Source of the DNA: Acidobacteriota bacterium
GTDB taxonomy: Bacteria; Acidobacteriota; Terriglobia; Versatilivoradales; Versatilivoraceae
DNA: 34,643 nucleotides
NCBI GenBank assembly: GCA_028875575.1
Contig: JAPPDF010000077.1
Location: 1 to 34,643, forward strand
Reading direction: 5' to 3'
Every line of letters begins with the position of its first letter. Positions within the stretch are counted from its first letter, which is position 1. Positions 613-34,643 of this stretch are shown here, piece by piece. A program made the translations under genes and the position numbers. The notes under the pieces are model-generated. The model searched no databases. It saw only the letters and a list, made by a program, of their open reading frames with translations, and was not told the origin of the DNA.

Positions 613-1383
613 GTGACCGTGCTTAGAGCGGAAAGACTCACCAAGCGATACCGCGGCATCCCGGTAGTTGACCAGGTCACATTTGAGGTGAAGCCCGGGG
701 AAGTCGTTGGGTATTTGGGACCGAACGGCTCGGGCAAAAGCACTACGGTGAAGATGCTGACCACTCTGCTGGAACCGTCTCAAGGACAGATCTTTTTCAA
801 TGGCCAGCCAATCCAAGTTGACCTTCACGGATTCAAGAAACGCTTGGGCTATGTTCCCGAGGAGTCCCATCTCTATCCCTATTTGACGGGAACTGAATAC
901 TTGCAGTTGGTCGGTCGACTGCGCTCCATACCGGAAAGGTTGCTAAACGAAAAAATCGACGCATTTCTACGGTTGTTTTTGCTCCACCCCTTCCGCCACT
1001 CTGCTATTTCGGCTTACTCCAATGGAATGCGACGAAAGATCTTGATCTCTGCTGCTTTGCTCCACAACCCTGACATTGTCATATTCGATGAGCCGGATTC
1101 CGGGCTGGACATCGGGTCGGGTTTAGTTCTGAGGAGCCTTGTCCAGACGTTGGCTGAGGAAAACAAGATCGTCCTTTACTGTTCTCATCTCCTCGATGTC
1201 GTCGAGAAGCTTTGCTCGAAAGTCGCGATTCTCTACCGGGGAAGGATTGTTGCGAATGACTCGATCGACCACTTGAGAACCTTGATGCGAAGACCCTCAC
1301 TCGAGGACGTGTTCACCGAGCTGGTGCGCCAAGAGGACCCATGCCATGTGGCGCGCGACATTGTGAACGTCATGAAATACTGA
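613..1383 (+). CDS. ABC transporter ATP-binding protein
   Basis: This 256-residue ATPase should power the permease that follows. Walker A is GPNGSGKST at residues 36-44. The signature region reads YSNGM rather than the usual LSGGQ, Walker B is IVIFDEP, and an H-loop histidine lies in LYCSHLL. The order and spacing fit the ABC-2 (CcmA-like) class. The start is GTG at 613 with AAGGGA just upstream; its distance from the sigma-54 promoter matches the second operon. The gene ends 7 bp before the permease, so the two are probably co-transcribed and translationally linked. The substrate is unknown. The degenerate signature motif is odd but seen in ABC-2 ATPases. Confidence 0.9.
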   Translation: MTVLRAERLTKRYRGIPVVDQVTFEVKPGEVVGYLGPNGSGKSTTVKMLTTLLEPSQGQIFFNGQPIQVDLHGFKKRLGYVPEESHLYPYLTGTEYLQLVGRLRSIPERLLNEKIDAFLRLFLLHPFRHSAISAYSNGMRRKILISAALLHNPDIVIFDEPDSGLDIGSGLVLRSLVQTLAEENKIVLYCSHLLDVVEKLCSKVAILYRGRIVANDSIDHLRTLMRRPSLEDVFTELVRQEDPCHVARDIVNVMKY

Positions 1384-1390
1384 TGCGATC

Positions 1391-3184
1391 ATGGGCTCTT
1401 CTGGAAATTTACGGGGTCCGGAAAGACGGGGGCCCGTTTTTCTACTCACCCGCCACTTCTTCAGACAGTTTTTTCATAATGACCTGCTCGCTCCACAAAC
1501 CGGGACGGAAATAACTCTGACGCATGTCCTGGCTCTCCTGATGGTGCCAGGGATCTTCATCTCGGTTAGCCTGGCTCGCAAGTATGCCTTTCTCCTGGCC
1601 CACTTCCCTCTGTCTGTTCATCAGGAAGCCACCTTGGAGGACAAGTTTTTCTTTCTCTTTTTCTCCATGCTTGTGATCGCGTTTGTGGCGGTGCTCAACT
1701 GGGATACTCTGTTCCCCACTCGCAAAGACTACAATATTCTTACTCCACTCCCCGTCCGGATGAGAACGTTGCTCGCATGCAAGGGGCTGGCTCTCGTTCT
1801 CTTGCTTCTCCTGTTCACACTGACAGTCAACGCCATTCCGACGGTGCTGTTTCCTCTGGTTGTCAATGCCAACATGGGTTCACTGCTTCATGAAGGACGG
1901 TTCATTCTGGAGTCCGGTGAGCGTGAACAGATTCAGGAGCAAGCCAGGCTGGTCTTTGCAGGCTGGTTTGTTTTGGCGCACGCTTTGAGCGTTACGGCCG
2001 GCAGTGCTTTTGCTTTCTTATCGGTGGTCTCGATCCAGGGAATTCTGATTACTCTGTTCAGAAGCGAGATGCTTCGCCGTGTTTCTCGTGCTGTACAGTT
2101 GCTGCTGATGATGAGTCTGCTTTCGGTGTTCTTCCTTTTCCCCAAGTTGATCTTCAGTTTTGAGAGTCTGCAGCATAACGAACTCTTTCAGACCCTATTC
2201 CCCCCCATGTGGTACCTCGGTCTCTATCAAATGCTTCTTGGCAGTGGAGAGTTTCGGCTTGAATCTCGAATTGGTCTAACAGCACTGACGATGACGGCCC
2301 TTTGCTGTCTCCTGACATACCTGGTTACCTACAAGAGGAAGGTTCAGGAGTCGTGGGAGTCCGTGGAGACAGTACGCCGGCCTGCGAGGGGTTTTCGTTT
2401 ATTAGCCGCCACCTTTGAACGCTTGGTGTTGAGGAACGAAAGAGAGCGGGCCACATTCTACTTTGTTGCAAGAACGCTCCTGAGAAGCCAGAAGCACCGT
2501 GTTTTTCTGGCTGGGTATTTCAGTGTGGGAATGGCGTTGGTATTTGTTGTGCTGATGGATGCACTCTCGATGAGTGGAACTGAGGATTGGAATCCACAAA
2601 GCGTACCGCTGCTATCCGTGCCGCTGATCCTGTCCTTTTTTATCCTGGCTGGAATGCGATACGCCTTCACGGTTCCGTCAGAACTGGAAGCCAACTGGAT
2701 CTTCAGGTTGGCTGAAAATAAAGGGAACGCCAGCGCGATTTCAGGAGTCCATAAAGCCATGCTGGTTCTGGGCATCATGCCTCTATTCATGATGTTGTTT
2801 CCTTCCTATTTGGTGGTGTGGGATGCGACTACCGCTCTACTTCACCTTGCTTACGGGTTTACCCTCGCACTGACTCTCATCGAGATCCTCCTCTTCAAGT
2901 TCCCGAAGATCCCGTTCACCTGCTCCTACTTGCCCGGGAGAGCAAACCTCAAGGGTTTATGGTTCCCCTATTTTCTCTTCTTTGTGACTTACGCCCACGC
3001 CATGGCAAAGCTCGAGGCGTGGCTGTTCGGAAACCCACTCTATTTCATCCTGTTTTATGCCTTCGCAATTCCTGCATTGCTTGTAGCCGTGATGTACAGG
3101 AACCGTCTATGGAACAGCGATCTGGCAATTGTCTATCTTGAAACTGCCGAACCAACTGTCAGAACTCTGAAACTAGGTGGATAG
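1391..3184 (+). CDS. Large multi-spanning ABC transporter permease
   Basis: This 597-residue protein has many hydrophobic stretches, for example around residues 45-70, 85-105, 125-160, 190-225, 235-255 and 385-430, with another group in the last 150 residues. That is the pattern of a polytopic inner-membrane permease, and its place 7 bp after the ATPase gene makes it the likely partner. I do not recognise a named family; it resembles large ABC-2-type permeases, perhaps two half-permeases in one chain. No signal peptide or periplasmic domain stands out. Substrate and direction are unknown, with export more likely given the ABC-2-type ATPase. There is no clear ribosome binding site, which fits translational coupling. 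Confidence 0.8.
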   Translation: MGSSGNLRGPERRGPVFLLTRHFFRQFFHNDLLAPQTGTEITLTHVLALLMVPGIFISVSLARKYAFLLAHFPLSVHQEATLEDKFFFLFFSMLVIAFVAVLNWDTLFPTRKDYNILTPLPVRMRTLLACKGLALVLLLLLFTLTVNAIPTVLFPLVVNANMGSLLHEGRFILESGEREQIQEQARLVFAGWFVLAHALSVTAGSAFAFLSVVSIQGILITLFRSEMLRRVSRAVQLLLMMSLLSVFFLFPKLIFSFESLQHNELFQTLFPPMWYLGLYQMLLGSGEFRLESRIGLTALTMTALCCLLTYLVTYKRKVQESWESVETVRRPARGFRLLAATFERLVLRNERERATFYFVARTLLRSQKHRVFLAGYFSVGMALVFVVLMDALSMSGTEDWNPQSVPLLSVPLILSFFILAGMRYAFTVPSELEANWIFRLAENKGNASAISGVHKAMLVLGIMPLFMMLFPSYLVVWDATTALLHLAYGFTLALTLIEILLFKFPKIPFTCSYLPGRANLKGLWFPYFLFFVTYAHAMAKLEAWLFGNPLYFILFYAFAIPALLVAVMYRNRLWNSDLAIVYLETAEPTVRTLKLGG

Positions 3185-7745: not shown

Positions 7746-8453
7746 ATGAGCTCCAATAATCCGTTGATTCAGTTGGACGACGTGACCAAGGTCTTTATGA
7801 CTGAAGAGATCGAGACTCACGCGCTCTCAAGAATCCACCTGAAAATCAGTAGGGGCGAGTATGTTTCCATCGCGGGTCCATCCGGTTGTGGCAAGTCGAC
7901 GATGCTGTCGATTCTGGGTTTATTGGACTCGCCCACGGAAGGGAGCTACATCTTCAACAGCAGACCGGTGGAGAGCCTTTCCCACTCACAAAGAGCGCGC
8001 ATTCGCAACCGGGAAATAGGCTTCATCTTCCAGAGCTTCAACCTCATTGGCGATCTCTCTGTCTTCGAGAACGTGGAACTGCCACTGGCCTATCGCGGGA
8101 TCAGGTCTTCCGAGCGACGTGACCGCGTTGGCCAGGCTCTCGAAAGGGTCGAAATGGAGCATCGTTCCAAACACCTGCCCAGCCAGTTGTCCGGAGGCCA
8201 GCAGCAGCGTGTAGCCGTGGCAAGAGCCTTGGCCGGTCGACCTCTCATTCTTCTCGCCGATGAACCGACGGGAAACCTGGACTCAAGGAACGGGGAGGCT
8301 GTTATGGAATTGCTTGACGACCTCCACCAGGAAGGGACGACTATCTGCATGGTGACTCATGACCCTCGCTACTCGCGGCACGCCGAACGAACCGTCAACC
8401 TCTTTGACGGACGGGTTGTGGAAGAACAACTGGCGGAAGACTATCAAGTGTAG
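7746..8453 (+). CDS. ABC transporter ATP-binding protein, MacB/LolD type
   Basis: This 235-residue ATPase has Walker A GPSGCGKST, a Q-loop in FIFQSFNLIGDLSVFENV, signature LSGGQQQRVAVARALA, Walker B LILLADEPTG with the following NLDS, and an H-loop in CMVTHDPRY. The combination with the FQSFNL Q-loop is typical of the MacB/LolD/FtsE group, which drives mechanotransmission exporters rather than classical substrate channels. It starts 9 bp after the adaptor gene and precedes the matching permease, so the three form one operon under the promoter at 6365. Confidence 0.95.
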   Translation: MSSNNPLIQLDDVTKVFMTEEIETHALSRIHLKISRGEYVSIAGPSGCGKSTMLSILGLLDSPTEGSYIFNSRPVESLSHSQRARIRNREIGFIFQSFNLIGDLSVFENVELPLAYRGIRSSERRDRVGQALERVEMEHRSKHLPSQLSGGQQQRVAVARALAGRPLILLADEPTGNLDSRNGEAVMELLDDLHQEGTTICMVTHDPRYSRHAERTVNLFDGRVVEEQLAEDYQV

Positions 8454-8499
8454 GTGGCCAACCCTGGCTGGCACATGAGTATTGCCGAGCCTGACTTCC

Positions 8500-11022
8500 A
8501 TGAAAGCTGACAAACCGCTAGTTCCAAGGCAGCCGCAAACGGTGAATCCCAACAAAAAACACCCTGAATTGCTGTCGCTGCTCTCAGACCTGCTTGACCG
8601 TGTCGGCCCAGAATTTCGGATGGCTCTCCGGTCAACATGGAAACACCGCCTGCATTCACTCACGGTGATCACAACAATAGCGCTGGTAATTGCTTCAGGA
8701 AGTGTGATCTTCAGCGTCGTTGATCGAATCCTGTTTCGTGCAACTCCCTATTCCCAAGAGGACACGCTTGTTTCAGTCGGTGTTGTCGCTCCAATCGAGT
8801 CGGTCGAGTTCCTGATGAGCGGCACCTACTTTCAATGGAAAAACAGCGGTGCGTTTAACGCAATGACGTCTTGGAGTGGAGTTACGGATTGCGCCTTTGT
8901 AAACGAAGTCCCCGTGGGTCTCGTTTGCGCGAGGGTCGAGTGGGATTTTTTGCAGGTCCTCGGTGTACCCCTTCAATTGGGAAGAGATTTCGACTGGACA
9001 GAGGATCGCCCCGGGGCGCCGAGAGTGGCGATATTGTCCCATGATCTTTGGAGCAGCCGTTTTGGTCGGAGCCGTGAGGTTATCGGCACGGAATTCTCTT
9101 CTGAAGGAGGACATGTAAGAGTTGTAGGGGTTCTTCCGCGCGACTTTGAATTACCAAACCTGCAGCCTTTTGACATGCTCGTGCCACAGTCTCTCCCTGA
9201 AAGGGCGTATAACCCTGAGGCAGCAACACACATTCTCAGGGCTTTTGCGAGACTTCAATCCGATACGACATTGCAACAAGCGCACGCAAGGCTGCAATCT
9301 CGGTTCCTGGAGATGCTTCAATGGGTGCCGCCAATTCTCCGAAACGAAATAAGTCTTCTCTTACGCCCGATCAGGGAATATCAGCTCGGCAGCGCTCGGC
9401 TGGCTTCCTGGCTTCTCCTCGCCGGCATCATAGCGGTGATACTCGTCGCGTGTGCGAATGTTGCAGGCCTGCTGTACGCTCGCGATGCGGGCCGGAAACA
9501 GGAGCGAGCCATACGGCATGCTCTTGGAGCAACCACGGCAAGGTCGCTCGCCGAAAGCACCGCACAAAATCTGATGCTTGGGTTTGCCGGGGGAATCGCG
9601 GGACTGGGATTGGCAAGCATTCTCTTAGAGGCTCTCATCAGGCTCGCCCCGGATGGAATTCCTTACTTGGATCAGGCCAGTATCAACTGGCGCGTTCTGG
9701 TGTTTGCGATTGGAGCGTCCGTTCTCGCAACGATTCTTCCCAGTGTGTCCATCGCCCTGCAGCGACCACAACTTGGCACGTTGACGGGGGTTCGCACGAC
9801 TCGTTCCGGTCTGGTCCTCCGTCAGTTACTGATTATTGCCCAAGTATCGCTTTCCATGTTTCTGCTGTCGCTGGCCGGGCTCTTGATACGAAGTTTTCTG
9901 AACATACAGACTGAGCAGATTGGAATACGCTCGGAAAAAGTCTTCACTGCAGAAATTCTTTTGGGTTCCCGCTACCCTCTCGCGGAACAACGGCACAGAA
10001 TCTTCGAGACGTTGGAATCTCGAATTCTCCGGCTTCCGGGGGTTGAAGCTGTCGGCGTCAGTGATACGTTGCCGCCAGTCGGCCCTGTTCGCAAAAAGCC
10101 ACTCTCCATCGTTCAGATTTACGGTCGCCCTTTAGCAGAAGAAGGCCAAATCGGATCAGTCAACTGGCGAGCCGTGACTCCCGGGTATTTTCAGGCCCTG
10201 GGCATACCCATCCTGCAGGGCCGAGGGTTTGTGGACGACGACAGGAAGAACAGCGACAAGGTAGTCATCCTCAGCGAGCGTCTTGCCGGAGTTCTCTTTC
10301 CAGGCGAGGAGTCGCTTTCGCAGCATGTGCGTTTTGGTCCTGATGAGCCATGGTGGACAGTCGTTGGGGTGGCTGGAGACGTCAAGAATGAGGGTCTGAC
10401 AGCCTTGCCCGAACCCGAGTTCTACCTCGTGCGCAAGGACGCCGCGGACTTGGGCCTTGGAAATCTTCAGACTGAGGGCACGAGCCGTCGAGCTGTTCTC
10501 GTGGTCCGGAGTGATTCAGCCGTCGAGGCGATGGGGAGGTCGATTCAGTTTGAAGTCGCTAAACTCGATCCAACGCTGCCAGTCAATGTCGAGGCTTTGG
10601 AAGAGAGTATTGCGCAATTGAGGACTCCCTCGCGTTTCAATGCAACTGTACTCGGGTACTTTTCCGTCCTGTCATTGCTGATGGCGTCGGTAGGAATTTA
10701 CGGACTGATCTCGTTCGTTGTAGAAGAGCGGAATCGCGAGCTCGGGATAAGAATGGCGCTTGGAGCGACACGCTGGCACATCGCGAGACTCATCTTGTCG
10801 CATGTGTTGGCCTGGACCGCTACGGGAGCTGTCATCGGGCTGTTCTGTGCTTTCCTGGCCGGAGATCTGGTGGAATCGTTACTGTATCGTGTGAAGGGAA
10901 TCGACTTGTTCACGCAGTTGGTGACGATCGGTGTATTGCTGCTAACAGCTCTTATTGCGGCCACAAGGCCGATTGTCCGCGCCAGTCGGGTCGACCCTGC
11001 AACAGTCTTGCGATACGAATGA
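8500..11022 (+). CDS. MacB/FtsX-family exporter permease, long form
   Basis: An 840-residue permease with duplicated FtsX architecture. TM1 lies near residues 51-76 and is followed by a periplasmic MacB-core domain (about 77-290). The first FtsX block contains LLLAGIIAVILVACANVAGL and RKQERAIRHALGATTAR. A second periplasmic MacB-core domain follows, and the C-terminal FtsX block contains ASVGIYGLISFVVEERNRELGIRMALGAT. The repeated RALGAT-like coupling motif confirms the two halves. The form resembles the long permeases common in Acidobacteria. I chose ATG at 8500; an in-frame TTG at 8482 would add six residues. The likely role is export of a peptide, lipid or small molecule with the adaptor and ATPase upstream. 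The substrate is unknown. Confidence 0.93.
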   Translation: MKADKPLVPRQPQTVNPNKKHPELLSLLSDLLDRVGPEFRMALRSTWKHRLHSLTVITTIALVIASGSVIFSVVDRILFRATPYSQEDTLVSVGVVAPIESVEFLMSGTYFQWKNSGAFNAMTSWSGVTDCAFVNEVPVGLVCARVEWDFLQVLGVPLQLGRDFDWTEDRPGAPRVAILSHDLWSSRFGRSREVIGTEFSSEGGHVRVVGVLPRDFELPNLQPFDMLVPQSLPERAYNPEAATHILRAFARLQSDTTLQQAHARLQSRFLEMLQWVPPILRNEISLLLRPIREYQLGSARLASWLLLAGIIAVILVACANVAGLLYARDAGRKQERAIRHALGATTARSLAESTAQNLMLGFAGGIAGLGLASILLEALIRLAPDGIPYLDQASINWRVLVFAIGASVLATILPSVSIALQRPQLGTLTGVRTTRSGLVLRQLLIIAQVSLSMFLLSLAGLLIRSFLNIQTEQIGIRSEKVFTAEILLGSRYPLAEQRHRIFETLESRILRLPGVEAVGVSDTLPPVGPVRKKPLSIVQIYGRPLAEEGQIGSVNWRAVTPGYFQALGIPILQGRGFVDDDRKNSDKVVILSERLAGVLFPGEESLSQHVRFGPDEPWWTVVGVAGDVKNEGLTALPEPEFYLVRKDAADLGLGNLQTEGTSRRAVLVVRSDSAVEAMGRSIQFEVAKLDPTLPVNVEALEESIAQLRTPSRFNATVLGYFSVLSLLMASVGIYGLISFVVEERNRELGIRMALGATRWHIARLILSHVLAWTATGAVIGLFCAFLAGDLVESLLYRVKGIDLFTQLVTIGVLLLTALIAATRPIVRASRVDPATVLRYE

Positions 11023-20117: not shown

Positions 20118-21266
20118 ATGCCCCAACGTCCCTTGTCTTCGCATCAGGTCGACCGTCCCACCGACCGCAGGACCTTCCTCAAGGCTTGTGGAGCGGCCGC
20201 GGGCTCGATGGTGCTGGCCCCGCTGTCCGGTTGCCAGCAGGCCCCACCGCCGTCCGAGCCTGCCGGCCGTCCCTCTCACCTGGTGCAGTTCGGCCACACC
20301 GACCTCTACGTTTCCAGGCACTGCCAGGGCACGGCCTTCCGGCGCCATCTCAGCCGCGAGGGCGGGGATGCCGAGGCCCACAAGCTGATAGGGCACTGTA
20401 TCGACCTCGGCATCAATTTCTTCGACTCCTCCGAAGCCTACGGGCACGGAGGATCCGAGACCGCATTGGGGCACGGAATCGCCGGACGGCGCAGCGAGGT
20501 GGTGATCGCCACCAAGGCCGCTGCAAGCGGCGCCGACGGAAAGCCCCTGGTCTTCACCCGGGAGATCCTGACCCGGAAGTGCGAAGCCAGCCTCAATCGC
20601 CTGCAAACCGACTACATCGATATCTACCTGTTGCACGGCGCCGACAAGCTCACTCCCTCCAGCGAACAATACTCGCCGCCTCACGACACCCCGACTCTGG
20701 AACACATGGAGGAGATTGCCGACGCCCTGGACAGCCTGGTTCAGGCCGGCAAGATCCGCTACTGGGGAGTTTCCAACCACCTGGCCAAGCAGGTGGACGA
20801 GTTGATCGAGATCGGAATGAGGGCCGACAGGTCCGGCAAGTCACGCCTCGCCGGCCTGCAGGACTACTACAACATCGTGTCCGGCGCCCGCCGGGACTTC
20901 ATGAGCCAGGAGTTGTTCCCGCTGATTCGCAAGGGCAACCTGGGGCTGATGGCCTTCAGCCCTCTGGGCGAAGGCAGACTGGTGCCGGGTCGAGAGCCCG
21001 AGGAGGGATCTCCCCTAGTCGGCGTGATCGAGGAACTGGACCGGGTCGCCGAAGAACTGGGGGTCAGCCGCCCCCAGGTGTGCGTGGCCTGGGTGCTTTC
21101 TCACCCCGAGGTGACCAGCGCCCTCTCTGGAGGGGAAAAGCCCGAGCACGTGGAGGACAACTTCAAGGGCACAAAGCTCACCCTGCCGGCAGAGGCTCTG
21201 ACGCGGCTCAAGGCCGCCTCCGACACCTACAACGAGCTGATGGCCAAAGCGAAAGCCGAGGGTTGA
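20118..21266 (+). CDS. Tat/lipoprotein aldo-keto reductase, copy 1
   Basis: A 382-residue aldo-keto reductase with an exported N-terminus: a twin-arginine motif DRRTFLKACG (Arg17-Arg18), a hydrophobic stretch and a lipobox LSGC ending at Cys39. The usual catalytic tetrad is visible as Asp103 and Tyr108 (NFFDSSEAYG), Lys133 (IATKAA) and His173 (YLLHG). The C-terminal cofactor region reads SALSGGEKPEHVEDN. Exported members of this normally NAD(P)H-dependent family must load cofactor in the cytosol, which fits Tat export. The start is ATG at 20118 with AAAGG 9 nt upstream. A near-identical gene follows at 21634. The substrate is unknown, perhaps a sugar or other carbonyl compound. Confidence 0.92.
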   Translation: MPQRPLSSHQVDRPTDRRTFLKACGAAAGSMVLAPLSGCQQAPPPSEPAGRPSHLVQFGHTDLYVSRHCQGTAFRRHLSREGGDAEAHKLIGHCIDLGINFFDSSEAYGHGGSETALGHGIAGRRSEVVIATKAAASGADGKPLVFTREILTRKCEASLNRLQTDYIDIYLLHGADKLTPSSEQYSPPHDTPTLEHMEEIADALDSLVQAGKIRYWGVSNHLAKQVDELIEIGMRADRSGKSRLAGLQDYYNIVSGARRDFMSQELFPLIRKGNLGLMAFSPLGEGRLVPGREPEEGSPLVGVIEELDRVAEELGVSRPQVCVAWVLSHPEVTSALSGGEKPEHVEDNFKGTKLTLPAEALTRLKAASDTYNELMAKAKAEG

Positions 21267-21633: not shown

Positions 21634-22776
21634 ATGCCCCTACGTCCCCTGTCTTCCCGTGCCGTCGACAGTCCGACCGATCGCAGGACCTTCCTCAAGG
21701 CTTGCGGAGCGGCTGCCGGCTCGGTGGTACTGGCTCCGCTGTCCGGTTGCCAACAGGCGCCACCGCCGCCCGAACCCACCAGCCGTCCCTCTCACCTGGT
21801 GCAGTTCGGCCACACCGACCTCTGGGTCTCCAGGCACTGCCAGGGCACGGCCTTCCGGCGCCACCTCAGCCGCGAGGGCGGGGACGTGGAGGCTCACAAG
21901 CTGATCCGGCACTGCATCGACATCGGCATCAACTTCTTCGACTCCGCCGAAGGCTACGGGATGGGAGGATCCGAAACCGCACTGGGGCACGGAGTCGCCG
22001 GACGGCGCAACGAGGTGGTGATCGCCACCAAAGGCTCGCCGCATCCCGCCGGCGAGAAACCCTTGGTCTTCACCAAGGAGATCCTGACCCGGAAGTGCGA
22101 AGCCAGCCTCAAACGCCTGAACACCGACTACATCGATATCTACCTGCTGCACGCCCCCGACGCGATTACTCCGTCCAGCCAACGTCCGGAGCCGCCCGCC
22201 GGCACCGCGACCCTGGAGCACATGGAGATGATCGCCGACACCATGGACAGCCTGGTTCAGTCCGGCAAGATCCGTTACTGGGGAGTTTCCAGCCACCTGG
22301 CCAAACAGGTGGACGAGCTGATCGAGATCGGAATGAGGCCGGACAGGTCGGGAAAATCACGCCTCGCCGGCCTGCAGGACTACTACAACATCGTGTCCGG
22401 CGCCCGCCGCGACTTCATGAGCGAGGAGCTGTTCCCGCTGATTCGCAAGGGCAACCTGGGACTGATGGCCTTCAGCCCGCTGGGAGAAGGCAGGCTGGTG
22501 CCGGGCCGGGAGCCCGAGGAGGGATCTCCCCTGACAGGCGTGATCCAGGAACTGGACCGGGTCGCCGAAGAACTGGGCGTCAGCCGCCCCCAGGTGTGCG
22601 TGGCCTGGGTGCTCTCTCATCCCGAGGTGACCAGCGCCCTCTCCGGAGGAGAAAAGCCCGAGCACGTGGAGGACAACTTCAAGGGCACCCAGCTCACCCT
22701 CCCCGACGAGGCCCTGACGCGACTCAAGGCCGCCTCCGACACCTACAACGAACTGATGGCGAAAGCGGAGGGTTGA
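21634..22776 (+). CDS. Tat/lipoprotein aldo-keto reductase, copy 2
   Basis: A 380-residue tandem paralogue of the gene at 20118, identical over long stretches in both protein and DNA. It has the same twin-arginine motif (Arg17-Arg18), the lipobox ending at Cys39 and the tetrad Asp103, Tyr108, Lys133, His173. Differences cluster in the active-site loops: FFDSAEGYGMGG for FFDSSEAYGHGG, TKGSPHPAGEK after the catalytic Lys, and LLHAPDAITPSSQRPEPPAG after the catalytic His. That pattern suggests a changed substrate preference rather than a spare copy. GAGGT at 21621-21625 is the ribosome binding site. Confidence 0.93.
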   Translation: MPLRPLSSRAVDSPTDRRTFLKACGAAAGSVVLAPLSGCQQAPPPPEPTSRPSHLVQFGHTDLWVSRHCQGTAFRRHLSREGGDVEAHKLIRHCIDIGINFFDSAEGYGMGGSETALGHGVAGRRNEVVIATKGSPHPAGEKPLVFTKEILTRKCEASLKRLNTDYIDIYLLHAPDAITPSSQRPEPPAGTATLEHMEMIADTMDSLVQSGKIRYWGVSSHLAKQVDELIEIGMRPDRSGKSRLAGLQDYYNIVSGARRDFMSEELFPLIRKGNLGLMAFSPLGEGRLVPGREPEEGSPLTGVIQELDRVAEELGVSRPQVCVAWVLSHPEVTSALSGGEKPEHVEDNFKGTQLTLPDEALTRLKAASDTYNELMAKAEG

Positions 22777-23154: not shown

Positions 23155-25857
23155 ATGCGAGACCCATTGTATTGTTTGCCTTTGTTCTTGATCCTTGTGG
23201 TCGCCGCGCCGGCTGTCGGCGCCGAGGTTGGCAGCGATGCGCCGACCTGCGCGGACAGCTCTGTCGTAGCCGGTGCCGTGCGCACAGAGGAAGACGTTCG
23301 AGTATTCGTTCAATGCGCCTACGAGCTGGTTCAGGAAGTGGGCCCCGAGGCGGCCCGGCGGGCCTTCCACGAGGAAGAGCGATGGAGGAGTGGTTCGATC
23401 TATGTTGTCGTCGTCGAACAGACGCCGGCCCAAGGGGCAGCTCGGTATTTCGTCTTCCCACCCGACCCTTCGAGGGAGGGGAGGCCGCACGGACCTCTGA
23501 TCGACAATTACGGCGGCGACTTCGCCGTGGAAGGGAACCGTGTCATCAGTCAATTCGGCGAAGGTTGGGTCTACTATGCGTTCGCCAATCCTGTGACCGG
23601 CCGGGAAGAGCCGAAGTCTTCCTACTTCAAGGCCATCGACTGGAACGGAGTGCCCTCCATGATCGGCGCCGGGATATACCGCCGGGATATTCCGGGCACC
23701 TGCCATGGGGACGAGGTCAACGCCGCCATGCTGGACGCCGACCCTTCCCGGGCAAGGTTGCAGGAGTTTGTCCGTTGCGCCGCCATGGATCTGGAATCGA
23801 GGGGATATTTCTCCACCGTCGCCCTGTCGTTCGATCCCCGTTGGAGAAGCGGTTCGGTCTACCTGTTCGGCCTGGACACTTTCGGCAACGCGCTCTTCAC
23901 CGGCGATCCCTACAGTCACCCCTTCGGCACCGGCATATCCGAACTGGATCCGAGCTTTGTCGGAACCTTCGGCGACCGGGACATCGTGAGCGTCGCCAAT
24001 ACCTTCGGAGAGTCGTTTCTCTACTACTCGACGCGCAATCCCTTTACCGGACTGCAGGCCCGCAAGGTGACTTTCGTCAAGAGGATCATGGTCTTCGATA
24101 TGCCGATCCTGCTCGCCGCCGGCTACTATCCGGAAGACATTCCATCGGGATCGGGCAATGAAGATGACGGAGGCTCCGGTTCTCCACCAGGCGACGACAC
24201 TCAGGGTGCGGGCCAGGGGGGCAGCGCCACCCTTCTCTACTGGCAGGCGCCGACCATTCTCAACCCCTACCTGTCCCGTGGCACCAAGGATGTCGAAGCG
24301 GCATCGCTGGTCATCGAGCCGCTGGCCGAGTACACTCCGGACGGGGAGATCGTCCCCGTACTCGCCACACAATTGCCGACCTCCGAGAACGGCGGCTTCT
24401 CCGCCGACCGGACCAGCATCACCTGGAAAATCCGGGATGATGCGCTCTGGTCAGACGGCACCTCTGTGACCGCCGACGACGTCGTCTTTACCTGGCGCTA
24501 CTGCACCGCTCCGGGAGGTGGCTGCTCCCGGGCTCGGGCCTTCGAAAACGTGGCCTCTGTCGACGCCGTCGACGAGCGAACCGTCACCATCACCTTCGTT
24601 GAACCGACGTCATTCCCCTATGACCCGTTCGTGTCCAGCGTCAGCCCGATCCTGCAAGCCGCGCAGTTCGCCGACTGCCTGGGCGAGGCGGCGGCCGGCT
24701 GCACCGACGAGAACCTGGGACCCATCGGCACGGGTCCCTATCTCGTGTCAGACTTCGGCTCAGACGGCACCATCCACTACCGGTTCAATCCCCGCTACCG
24801 GGGCGTAGAGTCGGGTCTTCCCTATTTCGGTGAAGTGATCCTGAAGGGCGGCGGTTCGGCCGAGGCCGCGGCACGATCGGTTCTTGAGCTCAACCAGGCC
24901 GACTATGCCTGGAACCTCCAGGTTGAACCCGAAGTCCTGGCTTCGATCTCAGAGGGCGGCGGTGGAACCATCGTCTCTGCTTTCGGCACGACAGTCGAGC
25001 GCCTGCTGATGAACCAGACCAACCCGGACCCGAGCCTGGGCGATCTACGTTCGGAGTACGCCGACGGCGCCAACCCGCACCCATTCCTGACCGATCCGGT
25101 GGTGGGGCGGGCCCTCTCACTGGCAATCGACCGCGACACCCTGGGCAGGACCGGTTACGGCGAGCAGGCCGGGCGTCCGACCTGCAATGTCTGGCCTGCG
25201 CCGCCCTCCCAGGCATCCACCAACAACGACGAATGCCTGGTTCAGAACATGGATCTGGCCAAGAAGATTCTGGACGATGCCGGGATCGTGGATTCCGATG
25301 GCGACGGCGTGCGGGAGCGGGAAGGGGTTCCCCTCAGGATCCTCTACCAGACTTCGACCAATTCGGTGCGCCAGACCACCCAGGAACTGATCAAGGGCTG
25401 GTGGACGGAACTCGGCATCGAGACCAGGCTGAAGCATGTCAATCCCGGCGTGTTCTTCGGTGGTGACATCACCAGTCCGGACACCGTGGGCAAGTTTTAC
25501 GCCGACGTTCAGATGTACGCCAACAGCGGAATCAGCCCGGATCCGGAGAGTTACCTGGGGTCCTGGGTCACCACCGAGATCGCCCGGGCGGCCAACTCCT
25601 ATCGCGGCTCGAACGTCCCGCGCTTCCAGTCAGACGAATACGATCGGCTCTTCGCCGAGCTCCAGAACACGGTTGACATGGAACGGCGCAACCGGATCAC
25701 CATTGCGCTCAACGACCTGCTGGTCGGCAGCTACGCGATCGTCCCTCTGGTTCACCGGGGATCGGTATCGGCTCACTCCAATGACATCGAGGGTGTCTGG
25801 ATGAACGCCTGGGATTCGGAGCTGTGGAACTTCGAAACCTGGAAGCGACGCGAGTAG
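23155..25857 (+). CDS. Secreted tandem-Cache / family-5 solute-binding fusion protein
   Basis: A 900-residue exported protein. The signal peptide is residues 1-23. Residues about 47-180 and 203-330 are two Cache-like sensor units; each has W-R-S-G-S-[IV]-Y (77-83 and 230-236), a later [VL]YY...NP.TG (139-149 and 289-299) and a closing AG[IY]Y (172-175 and 321-325). After an acidic Gly/Ser linker (331-356), residues 357-900 form a family-5 (oligopeptide/nickel) substrate-binding domain, with ATILNPYLSRGT-like opening, WSDGTSVTADDVVFTWRYC and a NDLLVGSYAIVPLVHRG end. No permease or ATPase gene is adjacent. The start is ATG at 23155; the longer frame to 22915 lacks a signal. The fusion suggests sensing and capture of a small ligand. 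Confidence 0.85.
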   Translation: MRDPLYCLPLFLILVVAAPAVGAEVGSDAPTCADSSVVAGAVRTEEDVRVFVQCAYELVQEVGPEAARRAFHEEERWRSGSIYVVVVEQTPAQGAARYFVFPPDPSREGRPHGPLIDNYGGDFAVEGNRVISQFGEGWVYYAFANPVTGREEPKSSYFKAIDWNGVPSMIGAGIYRRDIPGTCHGDEVNAAMLDADPSRARLQEFVRCAAMDLESRGYFSTVALSFDPRWRSGSVYLFGLDTFGNALFTGDPYSHPFGTGISELDPSFVGTFGDRDIVSVANTFGESFLYYSTRNPFTGLQARKVTFVKRIMVFDMPILLAAGYYPEDIPSGSGNEDDGGSGSPPGDDTQGAGQGGSATLLYWQAPTILNPYLSRGTKDVEAASLVIEPLAEYTPDGEIVPVLATQLPTSENGGFSADRTSITWKIRDDALWSDGTSVTADDVVFTWRYCTAPGGGCSRARAFENVASVDAVDERTVTITFVEPTSFPYDPFVSSVSPILQAAQFADCLGEAAAGCTDENLGPIGTGPYLVSDFGSDGTIHYRFNPRYRGVESGLPYFGEVILKGGGSAEAAARSVLELNQADYAWNLQVEPEVLASISEGGGGTIVSAFGTTVERLLMNQTNPDPSLGDLRSEYADGANPHPFLTDPVVGRALSLAIDRDTLGRTGYGEQAGRPTCNVWPAPPSQASTNNDECLVQNMDLAKKILDDAGIVDSDGDGVREREGVPLRILYQTSTNSVRQTTQELIKGWWTELGIETRLKHVNPGVFFGGDITSPDTVGKFYADVQMYANSGISPDPESYLGSWVTTEIARAANSYRGSNVPRFQSDEYDRLFAELQNTVDMERRNRITIALNDLLVGSYAIVPLVHRGSVSAHSNDIEGVWMNAWDSELWNFETWKRRE

Positions 25858-25869
25858 ATCAACCCAATC

Positions 25870-27483
25870 TCAGGGCGACAGGCTGAAGGTGAAGAGATTG
25901 CTGCCGGCGGCCACGGCCACGATCTGCTTGCCGTCCAGCATGTAGGTGATGGGGTGGGTGGTGATGGGCGACCCGGTCTGGAACTGCCACAGGCTCTTGC
26001 CGGTGTGGGCATCCAGCGCGGTGAGATAGCCGTCCATGTCGCCCACGAACACCAGCCCTCCCGCGGTGGAGAGCGTCCCTGCCCAGGTCGGGGTGTGGAA
26101 CTTGAACTCCCACTTGACCTCCCCGGTGGTGGGCACCAGGGCCTTGACCACGCCCCAGGTATCTTCGTCCGGCTTAACCTGAGGAAAGCTCCCCAGCCAG
26201 AAGTGGCCCGGCTCCAATTCCTGCTCGCTGCTGAAGTAGTCGGTGCACTCCTCGCGGACCACCACGTAGAGCAGACCGGCATCGGGATTGTAGGATGGCG
26301 CCATCCAGTTGGACCCTCCTCCCATTCCCGGGCACTGGCGGTTTCCCTCCGGAGTGGGGGCGGTGTTGGGAAGCACCATGGGCCGCCCGTTGGCGTCGAT
26401 TCCTGAGGCCCAGGTGACCCGAGCCACCGCGTTTGCGTGGAGGAACTCTCCGGTTTCCCTGTCCAGGACGTAGTAGAAACCGTTGCGATTGGACTGGACC
26501 ATCAGCTTTCTGGCCTTGCCGTCCATTTCGAGATCCAGCAGCACCGGGACCTCGTTGGCGTCCCAGTCGTGGACGTCGTGAGGCGTGAATTGAAAGTACC
26601 ACTGCATCTTGCCGGTGTCGGGGTCCAGCGCCACCACTGAGGCAGAGTAGAGGTTGTCGCCCAGGCGGGTCTCCCCGTTGAGATCGGGGGCCGGATTCCC
26701 GGTGCACCAGTAGAGCAGGTCCAGCTCAGGATCGTAGGTTCCCGTCATCCAGGTCGGCGCCCCGCCCGTCTTCCAGGAATCTCCCAACCAGGTTTCCGAG
26801 CCGGGCTCTCCGGCCGCCGGAATGGTCCAGAACCGCCACAGCCGCTTTCCTGTATCGGGGTCGTAGGCGTCCAGGAAACCGCGGACTCCATATTCGCCGC
26901 CTCCGGTTCCGATGATGACCTTGTCCTTGACGATGAGAGGAGCCCCGGTGGAGCTGTAGCCGATTCGGTAGTCGGCCCGCTCGATGTCCCAGAGGACGTT
27001 TCCGGTCTTGGTGTCCAGGGCCACCAGGTGGGAGTCGAGGGTGGCCATGAACAGCTTGTCCCGCAGCAGGGCGAATCCCCGATTGATGGGCCCGCAGCAG
27101 AGGCTCTGGTCGGGCAGGCTGCGCTGGTATCTCCAGAGCCTCCGACCCGTTCGAGCGTCCAGGGCATAGCCGTTGTTGTAGGGAGCCGTGATGTACATCA
27201 TCCCGTCTACCACCAGGGGTACGGTCTGGAACTTGGCGGCAGCCCCCACGCCGGTCTGAAACACCCAGTCGACCCGCAGGTCGTTCACGTTGCCCTTGTG
27301 AATCTGCTTGAGCGGACGGTAGTTCCGGCCGCTGTAATCCCCGCGGTAGGTGAGCCAGTTCTCCGGCTCATCCATTGCCCGCACCAATCGTTCGCTGGTT
27401 ACCTCTCCGGCCCGGGACAAGCCGGTCAAGCCGGGAAACATCAGCGACAGGCACATTGCCGGCACAAACCATGATCGAGTCAT
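25870..27483 (-). CDS. PQQ-dependent alcohol dehydrogenase, periplasmic
   Basis: A 537-residue quinoprotein with a signal peptide (residues 1-26). It shows the vicinal Cys129-Cys130 pair that packs on PQQ, Glu197 in GGEYGVRG, Asn263 in TGNPAPD, and catalytic Asp306 in PHDVHDWDAN. Asp308, two residues after the catalytic Asp, is the extra acid that marks lanthanide-dependent (XoxF-type) enzymes; calcium enzymes usually have Ala there. Propeller motifs such as DPDTGKRLWRF and DPDTGKMQWYF recur. It lies 106 bp after the diheme cytochrome c gene on the same strand, its likely electron acceptor. GAGGAG precedes the ATG at 27483. It oxidises an alcohol or aldehyde, substrate unknown. Confidence 0.92.
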   Translation of the reverse strand: MTRSWFVPAMCLSLMFPGLTGLSRAGEVTSERLVRAMDEPENWLTYRGDYSGRNYRPLKQIHKGNVNDLRVDWVFQTGVGAAAKFQTVPLVVDGMMYITAPYNNGYALDARTGRRLWRYQRSLPDQSLCCGPINRGFALLRDKLFMATLDSHLVALDTKTGNVLWDIERADYRIGYSSTGAPLIVKDKVIIGTGGGEYGVRGFLDAYDPDTGKRLWRFWTIPAAGEPGSETWLGDSWKTGGAPTWMTGTYDPELDLLYWCTGNPAPDLNGETRLGDNLYSASVVALDPDTGKMQWYFQFTPHDVHDWDANEVPVLLDLEMDGKARKLMVQSNRNGFYYVLDRETGEFLHANAVARVTWASGIDANGRPMVLPNTAPTPEGNRQCPGMGGGSNWMAPSYNPDAGLLYVVVREECTDYFSSEQELEPGHFWLGSFPQVKPDEDTWGVVKALVPTTGEVKWEFKFHTPTWAGTLSTAGGLVFVGDMDGYLTALDAHTGKSLWQFQTGSPITTHPITYMLDGKQIVAVAAGSNLFTFSLSP

Positions 27484-27589
27484 TGGCTCTCCTCTTCGGA
27501 CAGGATGCCTCCGCCAGCCGGCCGGCCCGGGAAGAAACCGCCCGCATCGGGTCTGTCCGGATAGCTGGAACTCACCTGATTCTACGCTT

Positions 27590-28432
27590 TCAATCCGCGG
27601 TCGGCCGAGTGAGGAATACCAGAAGATCCATCAATTCCTGGTCGGAAAGCGCGCTTTCCGAATAGGCCGGCATCAGCGAATGGTCCAGGTGGGTGAGTTC
27701 CCGCAGCTCGCTCTTGCGGTAGCTGTGGTAGTTCTCCTCCCGATCCAGCACCTGGATGGTATAGGTGTCCTCGTTGCGGACGACACCGGTGATCTCCTTT
27801 CCCGAGGAGGTCACCAGGCGGACCGACTCGTAGCCGCCCGCCATCCGTCCGTCCGCTTGTAGGACATTCTTGAACTGAGCGCTGGGGTCCCGCATGGCTT
27901 CCAGGAACGACTCCCAGGGGCGAGAATTTCCGATGCCTGTCAGGTCGGGACCCAAGCGCCCTCCTTCTCCCCGAACCATGTGGCAGCCGGAGCAAAAGCC
28001 CTTGCCGCTGAAGATCTCACGCCCCGATTTCCAGTTTCCGCTCAAATCCTGAGGCTGAGCCTTGGACCGGAGATCGGTGATAAAGGCGATCATGCGCCAC
28101 AGATTGCTGTCGGGTAGCGTTTGGCCGGGCATCTGGGTTCCCTGGATTCCGTTCCTCACCACCTCGAGCATGTCGTGATCGTCTACAACATGGGTGAGCT
28201 GCCCTCGAACCAGGTCGGGCCCGCGGAATCCCCCGCCGCCCTCCATTCCGTGGCAGCCGGCGCAGTAATAGCGGAAGAGGCCTTTTCCGACCAGAATGTC
28301 GTCCGGGTTCCCCTTGTAGGGGTTCTGCTTCCTCTCTTCTTCCTCCGCCACCGCCGGGGCTGCGAAGATTGAGCCCAGGACGACGGCAAGGATGGCCGGG
28401 ACAAGAGGCCTCGCCAGAATTTGCATAATCAT
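27590..28432 (-). CDS. Diheme cytochrome c
   Basis: A 280-residue exported cytochrome with a signal peptide (residues about 1-29) and two heme c sites: CAGCH (57-61) and CSGCH (147-151). Candidate axial Met residues are Met101 (TQMPGQ) and Met254 (SLMPAY). The region between about 205 and 250 (SGKEITGVVRNEDTYTIQV) is common in cytochromes next to PQQ dehydrogenases in soil bacteria. It is upstream of, and on the same strand as, the PQQ dehydrogenase and probably takes electrons from it. The start is ATG at 28432 (ATG 28426 is possible); GGGTGA lies just upstream. Confidence 0.93.
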   Translation of the reverse strand: MIMQILARPLVPAILAVVLGSIFAAPAVAEEEERKQNPYKGNPDDILVGKGLFRYYCAGCHGMEGGGGFRGPDLVRGQLTHVVDDHDMLEVVRNGIQGTQMPGQTLPDSNLWRMIAFITDLRSKAQPQDLSGNWKSGREIFSGKGFCSGCHMVRGEGGRLGPDLTGIGNSRPWESFLEAMRDPSAQFKNVLQADGRMAGGYESVRLVTSSGKEITGVVRNEDTYTIQVLDREENYHSYRKSELRELTHLDHSLMPAYSESALSDQELMDLLVFLTRPTAD

Positions 28433-33370: not shown

Positions 33371-34643
33371 ATGACGGGAAGGCGATCGTCCTGGATGGTT
33401 CGTTTGGGGTGCAGTCTAGTTCTGGCTGGTCTCTTCACCGAGGCGCCCCCCGCCGTAGCCCAGCCGCAGGTGGAGTGCCATCGCCAGGAAGGGATCGATG
33501 AGGCGCCGACCCCCAGCATCACCGCCAGTGAGGTGGAAGCGAACCCGAACCCGGCCAACCTGAAGAGCTTCGCGCTGGAAGCCAGAGACTACAGGCAGGA
33601 CTTGAGCCGAGACGAGTTAGCGTATGCGTCGTGTGTTTTCAGGCTTGAGGGAGATTGGAAGTCCGGTTCCATCTACGTTGTTACCCTGGATGTCCATGGA
33701 ACCGTTTTGCGTCATCACGGCAATATGGCTCTTTCCGGCAGGGAACTCCGTGAGGAAGTCTTCATGGCAATCGTCGCTGCGGCCGGCTTTGATACAGACA
33801 CTCAATCGTTCACAAACCCTGACGGTGGAGTCTTGGATATGCCGTTGAGCGGTTACGCTGTCGGATTCCATAGTATTTTTAACGCCCCGTCAATCCTGAC
33901 CGCCGGCTTCGACATACAGGAGTCTCACCTGAAGCCGGTCGTTTTCGATCCTGCCGACACCCCGGCGGTCACCGCCAGTGACGTGACGGATCGGGAATCC
34001 CTCAAGGCCTTCGTGAACGGGGCGATTGAGTTCGTAAGTAACGTTTACGCGAGGGAAGGCACTAGAGCTGTTACAAGAATGAAGAGCGCCTTCAGGCAGG
34101 AGGAGGGACCCTGGAGAGACGGTTCCGTCTACCTCTATGTGCTGGATACCACCGGATACGTCTGGTTTCACGCGGCATTTCCGCAACAGTTCGAGTTGGT
34201 AGTGGCCACCGGTAGATACATCGATGCCGTTACCGGAAAACCCATTTTCCTCAAGATCATCGAGGCGGTCCAATCGAGCCCGGACGGCGCCTTCGTCGAG
34301 TATCACTTCGACGATCCCGCCGATGACTCCGACAGCGCCGAGATTCCCAAGACCGCCTTCGTACGCATGTATAGCTTCCCCGGACTTGAAAATATACTCC
34401 CGCCCTTTATCTTTGGCTCCGGCTTTTATGGGCCGGCGACCGGCACGGACGCCATGACCCAGTTCGTCCCGGTGGTGCTGGACTCGAGGGGGAAGAGCAA
34501 CTCCCACTTCACCTCGGAGCTGGCTCTGACCAACCGTGGTTCCGAGCCGGCCATTCTCAACTACACCTACACGCCTCATCAGGGAGGGGGCAGCGGCACC
34601 GCCACCGACATGCTGGGTCCCCACCAGCAGAAGATCGAGGCCA
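33371..34643 (+). CDS. Secreted Cache-repeat protein, 3' end outside the window
   Basis: The frame opens at ATG 33371 behind GGGAGGTAG and is still open at the window end (424 codons seen). A signal peptide covers residues 1-30 (cleavage after AVA). Two Cache-like units follow: about 63-187 with GDWKSGSIYVVTLDVHG (94-110) and 208-355 with GPWRDGSVYLYVLDTTG (246-262). Each is introduced by a linker of the form TPxxTASxV (48-55 and 197-205). From about 365 a different domain begins, FVPVVLDSRGKSNSHFTSEL, like the FTTELTLTNRG-type modules of large acidobacterial surface proteins. Probably an extracellular or cell-surface sensor/adhesin; the ligand is unknown. Confidence 0.85.
   Translation, partial: MTGRRSSWMVRLGCSLVLAGLFTEAPPAVAQPQVECHRQEGIDEAPTPSITASEVEANPNPANLKSFALEARDYRQDLSRDELAYASCVFRLEGDWKSGSIYVVTLDVHGTVLRHHGNMALSGRELREEVFMAIVAAAGFDTDTQSFTNPDGGVLDMPLSGYAVGFHSIFNAPSILTAGFDIQESHLKPVVFDPADTPAVTASDVTDRESLKAFVNGAIEFVSNVYAREGTRAVTRMKSAFRQEEGPWRDGSVYLYVLDTTGYVWFHAAFPQQFELVVATGRYIDAVTGKPIFLKIIEAVQSSPDGAFVEYHFDDPADDSDSAEIPKTAFVRMYSFPGLENILPPFIFGSGFYGPATGTDAMTQFVPVVLDSRGKSNSHFTSELALTNRGSEPAILNYTYTPHQGGGSGTATDMLGPHQQKIEA

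Follow-up and report, generated by a model that had tools for sequence, protein, structure and literature searches.

Why a binding domain of the kind that feeds ABC importers should stand behind two Cache units, which usually sense ligands in receptors, on a single exported chain is the question raised by a gene of an Acidobacteriota bacterium. The gene lies in a contig of 34,643 nucleotides (JAPPDF010000077.1, assembly GCA_028875575.1) that was analysed over its whole length and is referred to here as the window. A first-pass annotation had described it as a secreted fusion with no transmembrane segment after the signal and no importer genes nearby, and had proposed a ligand-scavenging or signalling protein of a new type.

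Architecture and surroundings of the fusion gene

The fusion gene and its parts are the following.

23155..25857, + strand: complete fusion gene, an open frame of 900 amino acids with the same length and order in orthologues
23155..23223, + strand: Sec signal peptide without lipobox, about residues 1-23, read from the sequence (APAVGA-EVG)
23275..23694, + strand: Cache unit 1 of the sCache_2 type, residues 41-180, from profile and fold matches
23737..24138, + strand: Cache unit 2, residues 195-328, from the module model and Cache/PAS fold matches
24139..24225, + strand: Gly/Ser/Asp-rich linker, residues 329-357, with low model confidence and low identity among orthologues
24226..25854, + strand: SBP_bac_5 domain, residues 358-900, from Pfam

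This architecture of a signal, two Cache units and an SBP_bac_5 domain is near certain. Pfam places SBP_bac_5 (PF00496) at residues 398-807 with an E-value of 1.9e-55 (188.9 bits for a cut-off of 32.4) and dCache_2 (PF08269) on two stretches (31.7 bits, cut-off 26.5). The sCache_2 profile (PF17200, cut-off 25) reaches 27.8 bits with the N-terminal module alone and 24.0 bits on the full protein. The start at 23155 agrees with the orthologues, the frame being open upstream to 22915, and the length and domain order recur in L014-L016, L136, L027, L064, L062 and others. The signal, through which the protein would be exported via Sec, is its sole strongly hydrophobic segment (KD 2.3 at residue 5). 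No transmembrane segment is seen after it in a hydrophobicity scan of the full 900 residues, the second-highest value (KD 1.74 at residue 848) falling inside the conserved SBP core, and a Pfam scan finds no cytoplasmic output domain on the chain. Cache chemoreceptors and sensor kinases, in contrast, combine a transmembrane helix and a cytoplasmic output domain in one polypeptide.

In the AlphaFold2 model of the N-terminal module (pLDDT 84, pTM 0.75) two Cache folds are visible. Unit 1 superposes on 5g4y with a Z-score of 16.0 (125 residues, rmsd 2.2 Å), followed by 4k08 (Z 15.9) and 2qhk (Z 15.3), while unit 2, modelled with a pLDDT mostly between 85 and 94 except at residues 250-280, matches other Cache/PAS sensor domains with Z-scores of about 10-11. 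Phmmer searches of the PDB with the window's module or unit 2 alone give weak matches only, some of them spurious (myelin P0, viral fusion proteins). In the full-length model, derived from a 61-row alignment, the SBP half has a pLDDT mostly below 50; the nearest solved structures of this domain are 4pft and 1vr5, annotated as sugar/oligopeptide SBPs.

Comparison with the chemoreceptor domains of known structure gives indications on the ligands. The sCache_2 domains of PscD (5g4y), Adeh_3718 (4k08) and a V. parahaemolyticus MCP (2qhk/4exo) have the same fold, with Z-scores of 15-16, and share with the Cache units of the fusion the Tyr/Tyr/Lys positions that contact carboxylates; the fusion differs from them by its tandem units, by an invariant Cys pair in each, and by its export as a chain that has no transmembrane helix and neither a HAMP nor a signalling domain. 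The carboxylate contacts of PscD are Tyr90, His103, Tyr143 and Lys156 (PMC5062169). Counterparts of Tyr90, Tyr143 and Lys156, located in unit 1 by visual reading of a profile alignment and in unit 2 by its internal correspondence with unit 1, are Y83 (43 of 44 modules), Y141 (43 of 44) and K154 (all 44) in the former and Y236 (41/44), Y291 (43/44) and K304 (41/44) in the latter. The conservation of these positions makes small carboxylate-like ligands plausible for the Cache units. The position of His103 is occupied by Phe or Tyr and two Trp of PscD by Phe or small residues, so that the ligand may differ from that of PscD. The Cys pairs, C32/C54 and C183/C208, are invariant in 44 of 44 modules and would be consistent with disulfides formed outside the cytoplasm.

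No importer genes for the SBP domain are present in the window, whose ABC genes (613-3184 and 7746-11022) encode an ATPase accompanied by an unrecognised membrane protein, and a system of the MacB/FtsX type. On the minus strand, convergent with the fusion gene, 25870-28432 holds genes for a PQQ-dependent dehydrogenase and a c-type cytochrome. This pair adjoins the fusion in common only in L015, L016 and L136, and comparison of the fusion neighbourhoods reveals no neighbour gene common beyond close relatives, and thus no candidate for a partner gene. Elsewhere on the plus strand, 20118-21266 and 21634-22776 are adjacent and very similar aldo/keto reductase genes, a tandem duplication. Another exported protein of the Cache type is encoded at 33371-34643 (+), truncated by the end of the contig; it is 45% identical to a 946-residue protein of the same genome (L209) that has C-terminal beta repeats, and it also resembles the N-terminal third of six-unit proteins of Bryobacterales.

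Recurrence of the fusion and separate histories of its two halves

Relatives were confirmed by tblastn in public genomes and in samples of the same family, class and phylum. The module and SBP5 share one frame at 20 loci besides the window, 18 of them distinct (L015/L190 and L062/L188 are identical pairs), in Acidobacteriota of two classes and in unrelated gene neighbourhoods. Twelve loci of this set have two Cache units (L014, L015, L016, L136, L190, L027, L064, L062, L186-L189) and the others have four (L061, L067, L069, L070, L072, L077, L078, L192). L136 sits in a single-contig chromosome of 5.1 Mb (OX638355.1; G022, evidently identical with G010). The gene is under purifying selection, as judged from dN/dS values of 0.14-0.21 for the SBP region and of about 0.2-0.46 for the Cache region, and synonymous divergence is similar along its whole length, on both sides of the junction. 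A second copy of the fusion at L199/L200 (G432:C127) is seemingly broken, its SBP part being split between frames.

The fusion is part of a larger family, of which the window's genome encodes seven tandem-Cache members: four that stand alone with two units (L003-L006) and three that are fused, to SBP5 (the present gene), to SBP_bac_3 (L002) and to a 216-residue beta domain without Pfam match (L007). Chains of four and six units occur elsewhere, and most members have no C-terminal cargo domain. Strong matches in the class sample are found in 21 of 399 genomes, all of them in the window's family (one genus), in f3 (one genus) or in f12 (three genera), and the phylum sample adds a genus from another class (f33). 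Exported Cache proteins of more distant kinship, with one or four units, occur in other Acidobacteriota, and the tandem-Cache module was not found in plasmid records. Among named organisms the nearest is Candidatus Versatilivorator vitaminiformans (Terriglobia), with a module identity of 97%. Among other arrangements, a tandem-Cache module is fused to Cu/Zn superoxide dismutase at L057:5989-7413 (Sod_Cu E 3e-30), and L063 and L065 (OY282420.1) hold arrays of five consecutive two-unit Cache genes, the last of which in L065 is fused to SBP_bac_3.

The SBP5 domains of Acidobacteriota form one clade (support 100/100) nested among alphaproteobacterial SBPs, which points to a transfer that probably went from Alphaproteobacteria to Acidobacteriota. 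Outside the phylum, the nearest SBPs are unfused alphaproteobacterial peptide-SBPs with 46-52% identity (plasmid records searched), from Rhizobium, Sulfitobacter and Ponticoccus. DppB/C-like genes adjoin or lie near these SBP genes in Rhizobium lusitanum and Neorhizobium, and no ABC permease is annotated nearby in the incomplete gene table of Sulfitobacter and Ponticoccus. The best SBP5 matches in phage records have 23-24% identity.

The Cache modules have a different history. Modules fused to SBP5 do not form one clade, each group sitting with the stand-alone modules of its own lineage; a tree constrained to unite the two-unit SBP5 modules, 13 in number, is worse by 142.8 log-likelihood units (AU p 5.6e-70), for a group defined by architecture and a test chosen after the tree was seen. 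Given a single SBP5 clade joined to modules of several clades, the modules have been swapped or re-fused, which may reflect either repeated SBP fusion or replacement of the module by recombination with local paralogues. It suggests domain exchange within an uncultured group.

Importers, chemoreceptors and the role of the fusion

Importers of the Opp/Dpp/Nik type were sought through the Pfam markers PF12911 (OppC_N) and PF08352 (oligo_HPY). Both are absent from the window's genome (G000), rated 100% complete, and from the single-contig G010/G022; among control genomes, 11 of 14 are positive in each search. The window's genome has ten PF00528 stretches, of which nine were scanned, the tenth being the other half of a double permease. 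They correspond to PstC, PstA, ProW/ChoW, ModB, PotC, PotB, UgpE, UgpA and a CysT-like double permease. No HisMQ-type permease (TIGR01726) is found in G000, G010 or G316; of these three genomes, G000 and G316 contain SBP3 fusions. In four genomes the fusion is the sole SBP_bac_5 found. Three of the 13 fusion-bearing genomes (G014, G015, G023) possess Opp/Dpp genes, located on different contigs or at a distance of about 17 kb. In addition, a single OppC_N match is seen in each of G009 and G011, which are fragmented genomes belonging to the genus of the window. The window's genome also has an unfused second SBP_bac_5 (G000:C90:13998-15107, L129; see also L135), again in a genome without Opp/Dpp importer genes. 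The MCPsignal domain is absent from five genomes that carry the tandem-Cache family.

With no importer for it in the genome, the SBP domain was probably turned to another use, the sensing or holding of a ligand outside the cell. That the fusion is an exported ligand-binding protein devoted to sensing, buffering or presenting ligands, and not to their uptake, is given roughly even chances. An importer-type SBP would have been acquired and joined to a tandem-Cache module already common in exported proteins of these bacteria. The product would leave via Sec and remain soluble in the periplasm or outside, where the two Cache units would bind small molecules, probably small carboxylate-like ones, and the family-5 domain would capture a larger solute such as a peptide or an oligosaccharide. 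As no matching ABC importer is encoded by the cell, this solute would not be handed on to one, and the loaded state of the protein would instead be presented to another envelope component.

The main rival of this sensing or holding role is that the Cache module anchors, dimerises or targets the protein and carries the C-terminal domain as cargo, with avidity for a surface or host matrix gained by repeating the units. In favour of this rather unlikely function, the same module precedes domains as unrelated as SBP5, SBP3, Cu/Zn superoxide dismutase and an unassigned beta domain, its units are multiplied to four and six, and its Cys pairs never vary. It accounts poorly for ligand-pocket positions that are near-invariant in both Cache units, which a pure anchor would not need, and for the lack of cargo in most family members. 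Less probable still is that the SBP is a conventional one feeding an importer encoded elsewhere in the genome, with a Cache regulator added to it. The identity of the domain with alphaproteobacterial SBPs, some of them beside DppB/C genes, and the Opp genes of three fusion-bearing genomes speak for it; the window's genome and its single-contig relative, however, have neither Opp/Dpp permease nor ATPase, and the permeases that remain are those of other importer families.

Chemoreceptors of other bacteria make use of both Cache and SBP domains, and the fusion could be conceived as a soluble periplasmic protein presenting ligands to a chemotaxis receptor, in the manner of DppA and Tap. The absence of MCPsignal from the five genomes indicates that chemotaxis is not its outlet and renders this reading very improbable. 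An assembly or frameshift artefact joining two genes is practically dismissed by the selection and synonymous divergence noted above, and a junction identical across many independent assemblies, including a single-contig chromosome.

A relative of the SBP5 domain with 39% identity lies on an Ensifer adhaerens plasmid (L206:5926-10352), directly before the gene of a CHASE3-HAMP-GAF-adenylate/guanylate cyclase receptor. The pair hints at an SBP-fed cyclase and may serve as a precedent for an SBP5 coupled to signalling, as one case in a distant relative.

The first-pass annotation is borne out on structure and context: Pfam, the module model and the signal agree on two true Cache folds and a family-5 domain on one exported chain, no transmembrane segment follows the signal, importer genes are missing from the neighbourhood and from the genome, and the domain order recurs with neighbours common to close relatives only. 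A ligand-scavenging or signalling role fits the importer absence, the export signal and the conserved Cache pocket positions, as a probable function.

Relation to known systems and significance

The qualification of a new type stands only in part. Exported Cache proteins are already known, unanchored ones being common in Acidobacteriota: L158, L159 and L171-L180 have tandem or single Cache units without receptor parts like those of the fusion, of which they are only distant kin, and no fused binding protein or enzyme is seen in them. An extracellular ligand receptor with a dCache has also been deposited, Dret_0059 of Desulfohalobium retbaense (PDB 5ERE), whose residues 322-562 form a cytosine-binding dCache (PMC8694187). 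It was deposited as an 'extracellular ligand binding receptor', and the part preceding the dCache is long enough for a binding domain. Its dCache is a true one and C-terminal, whereas the fusion has N-terminal single-Cache units; Foldseek aligns the module with 5ere (E 3.4e-5, TM 0.25/0.17), the two proteins differing in domain order and Cache type. With family-5 SBPs of the OppA, DppA and NikA type the fusion shares a whole SBP_bac_5 domain, but it carries this domain behind Cache units and in a genome without Opp/Dpp permease or ATPase. In the incomplete literature covered, neither Cache-module exchange nor a fusion of tandem single-Cache units to an SBP5 or SBP3 lacking its importer was found described, which weakly favours novelty on these two points; searches on orphan SBPs, on sponges and Cache, and on the genus found nothing.

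The names of genomes and contigs suggest sponge hosts for this group. The sponges studied in PMC8163846 are R. odorabile, Coscinoderma, Ircinia and Aplysina. It is tentatively proposed, as a possibility less likely than not, that the fusions belong to a lineage-specific extracytoplasmic system for sensing or capture that works without importers or chemoreceptors. In it, binding domains captured from importers, and enzymes, would be attached to an interchangeable tandem-Cache module that is exchanged among sponge-living Acidobacteriota. The fusions of SBP families 5 and 3 to the same Cache module provide a natural case of importer-type binding domains maintained under selection without an importer, in which non-transport roles of binding proteins can be tested directly.
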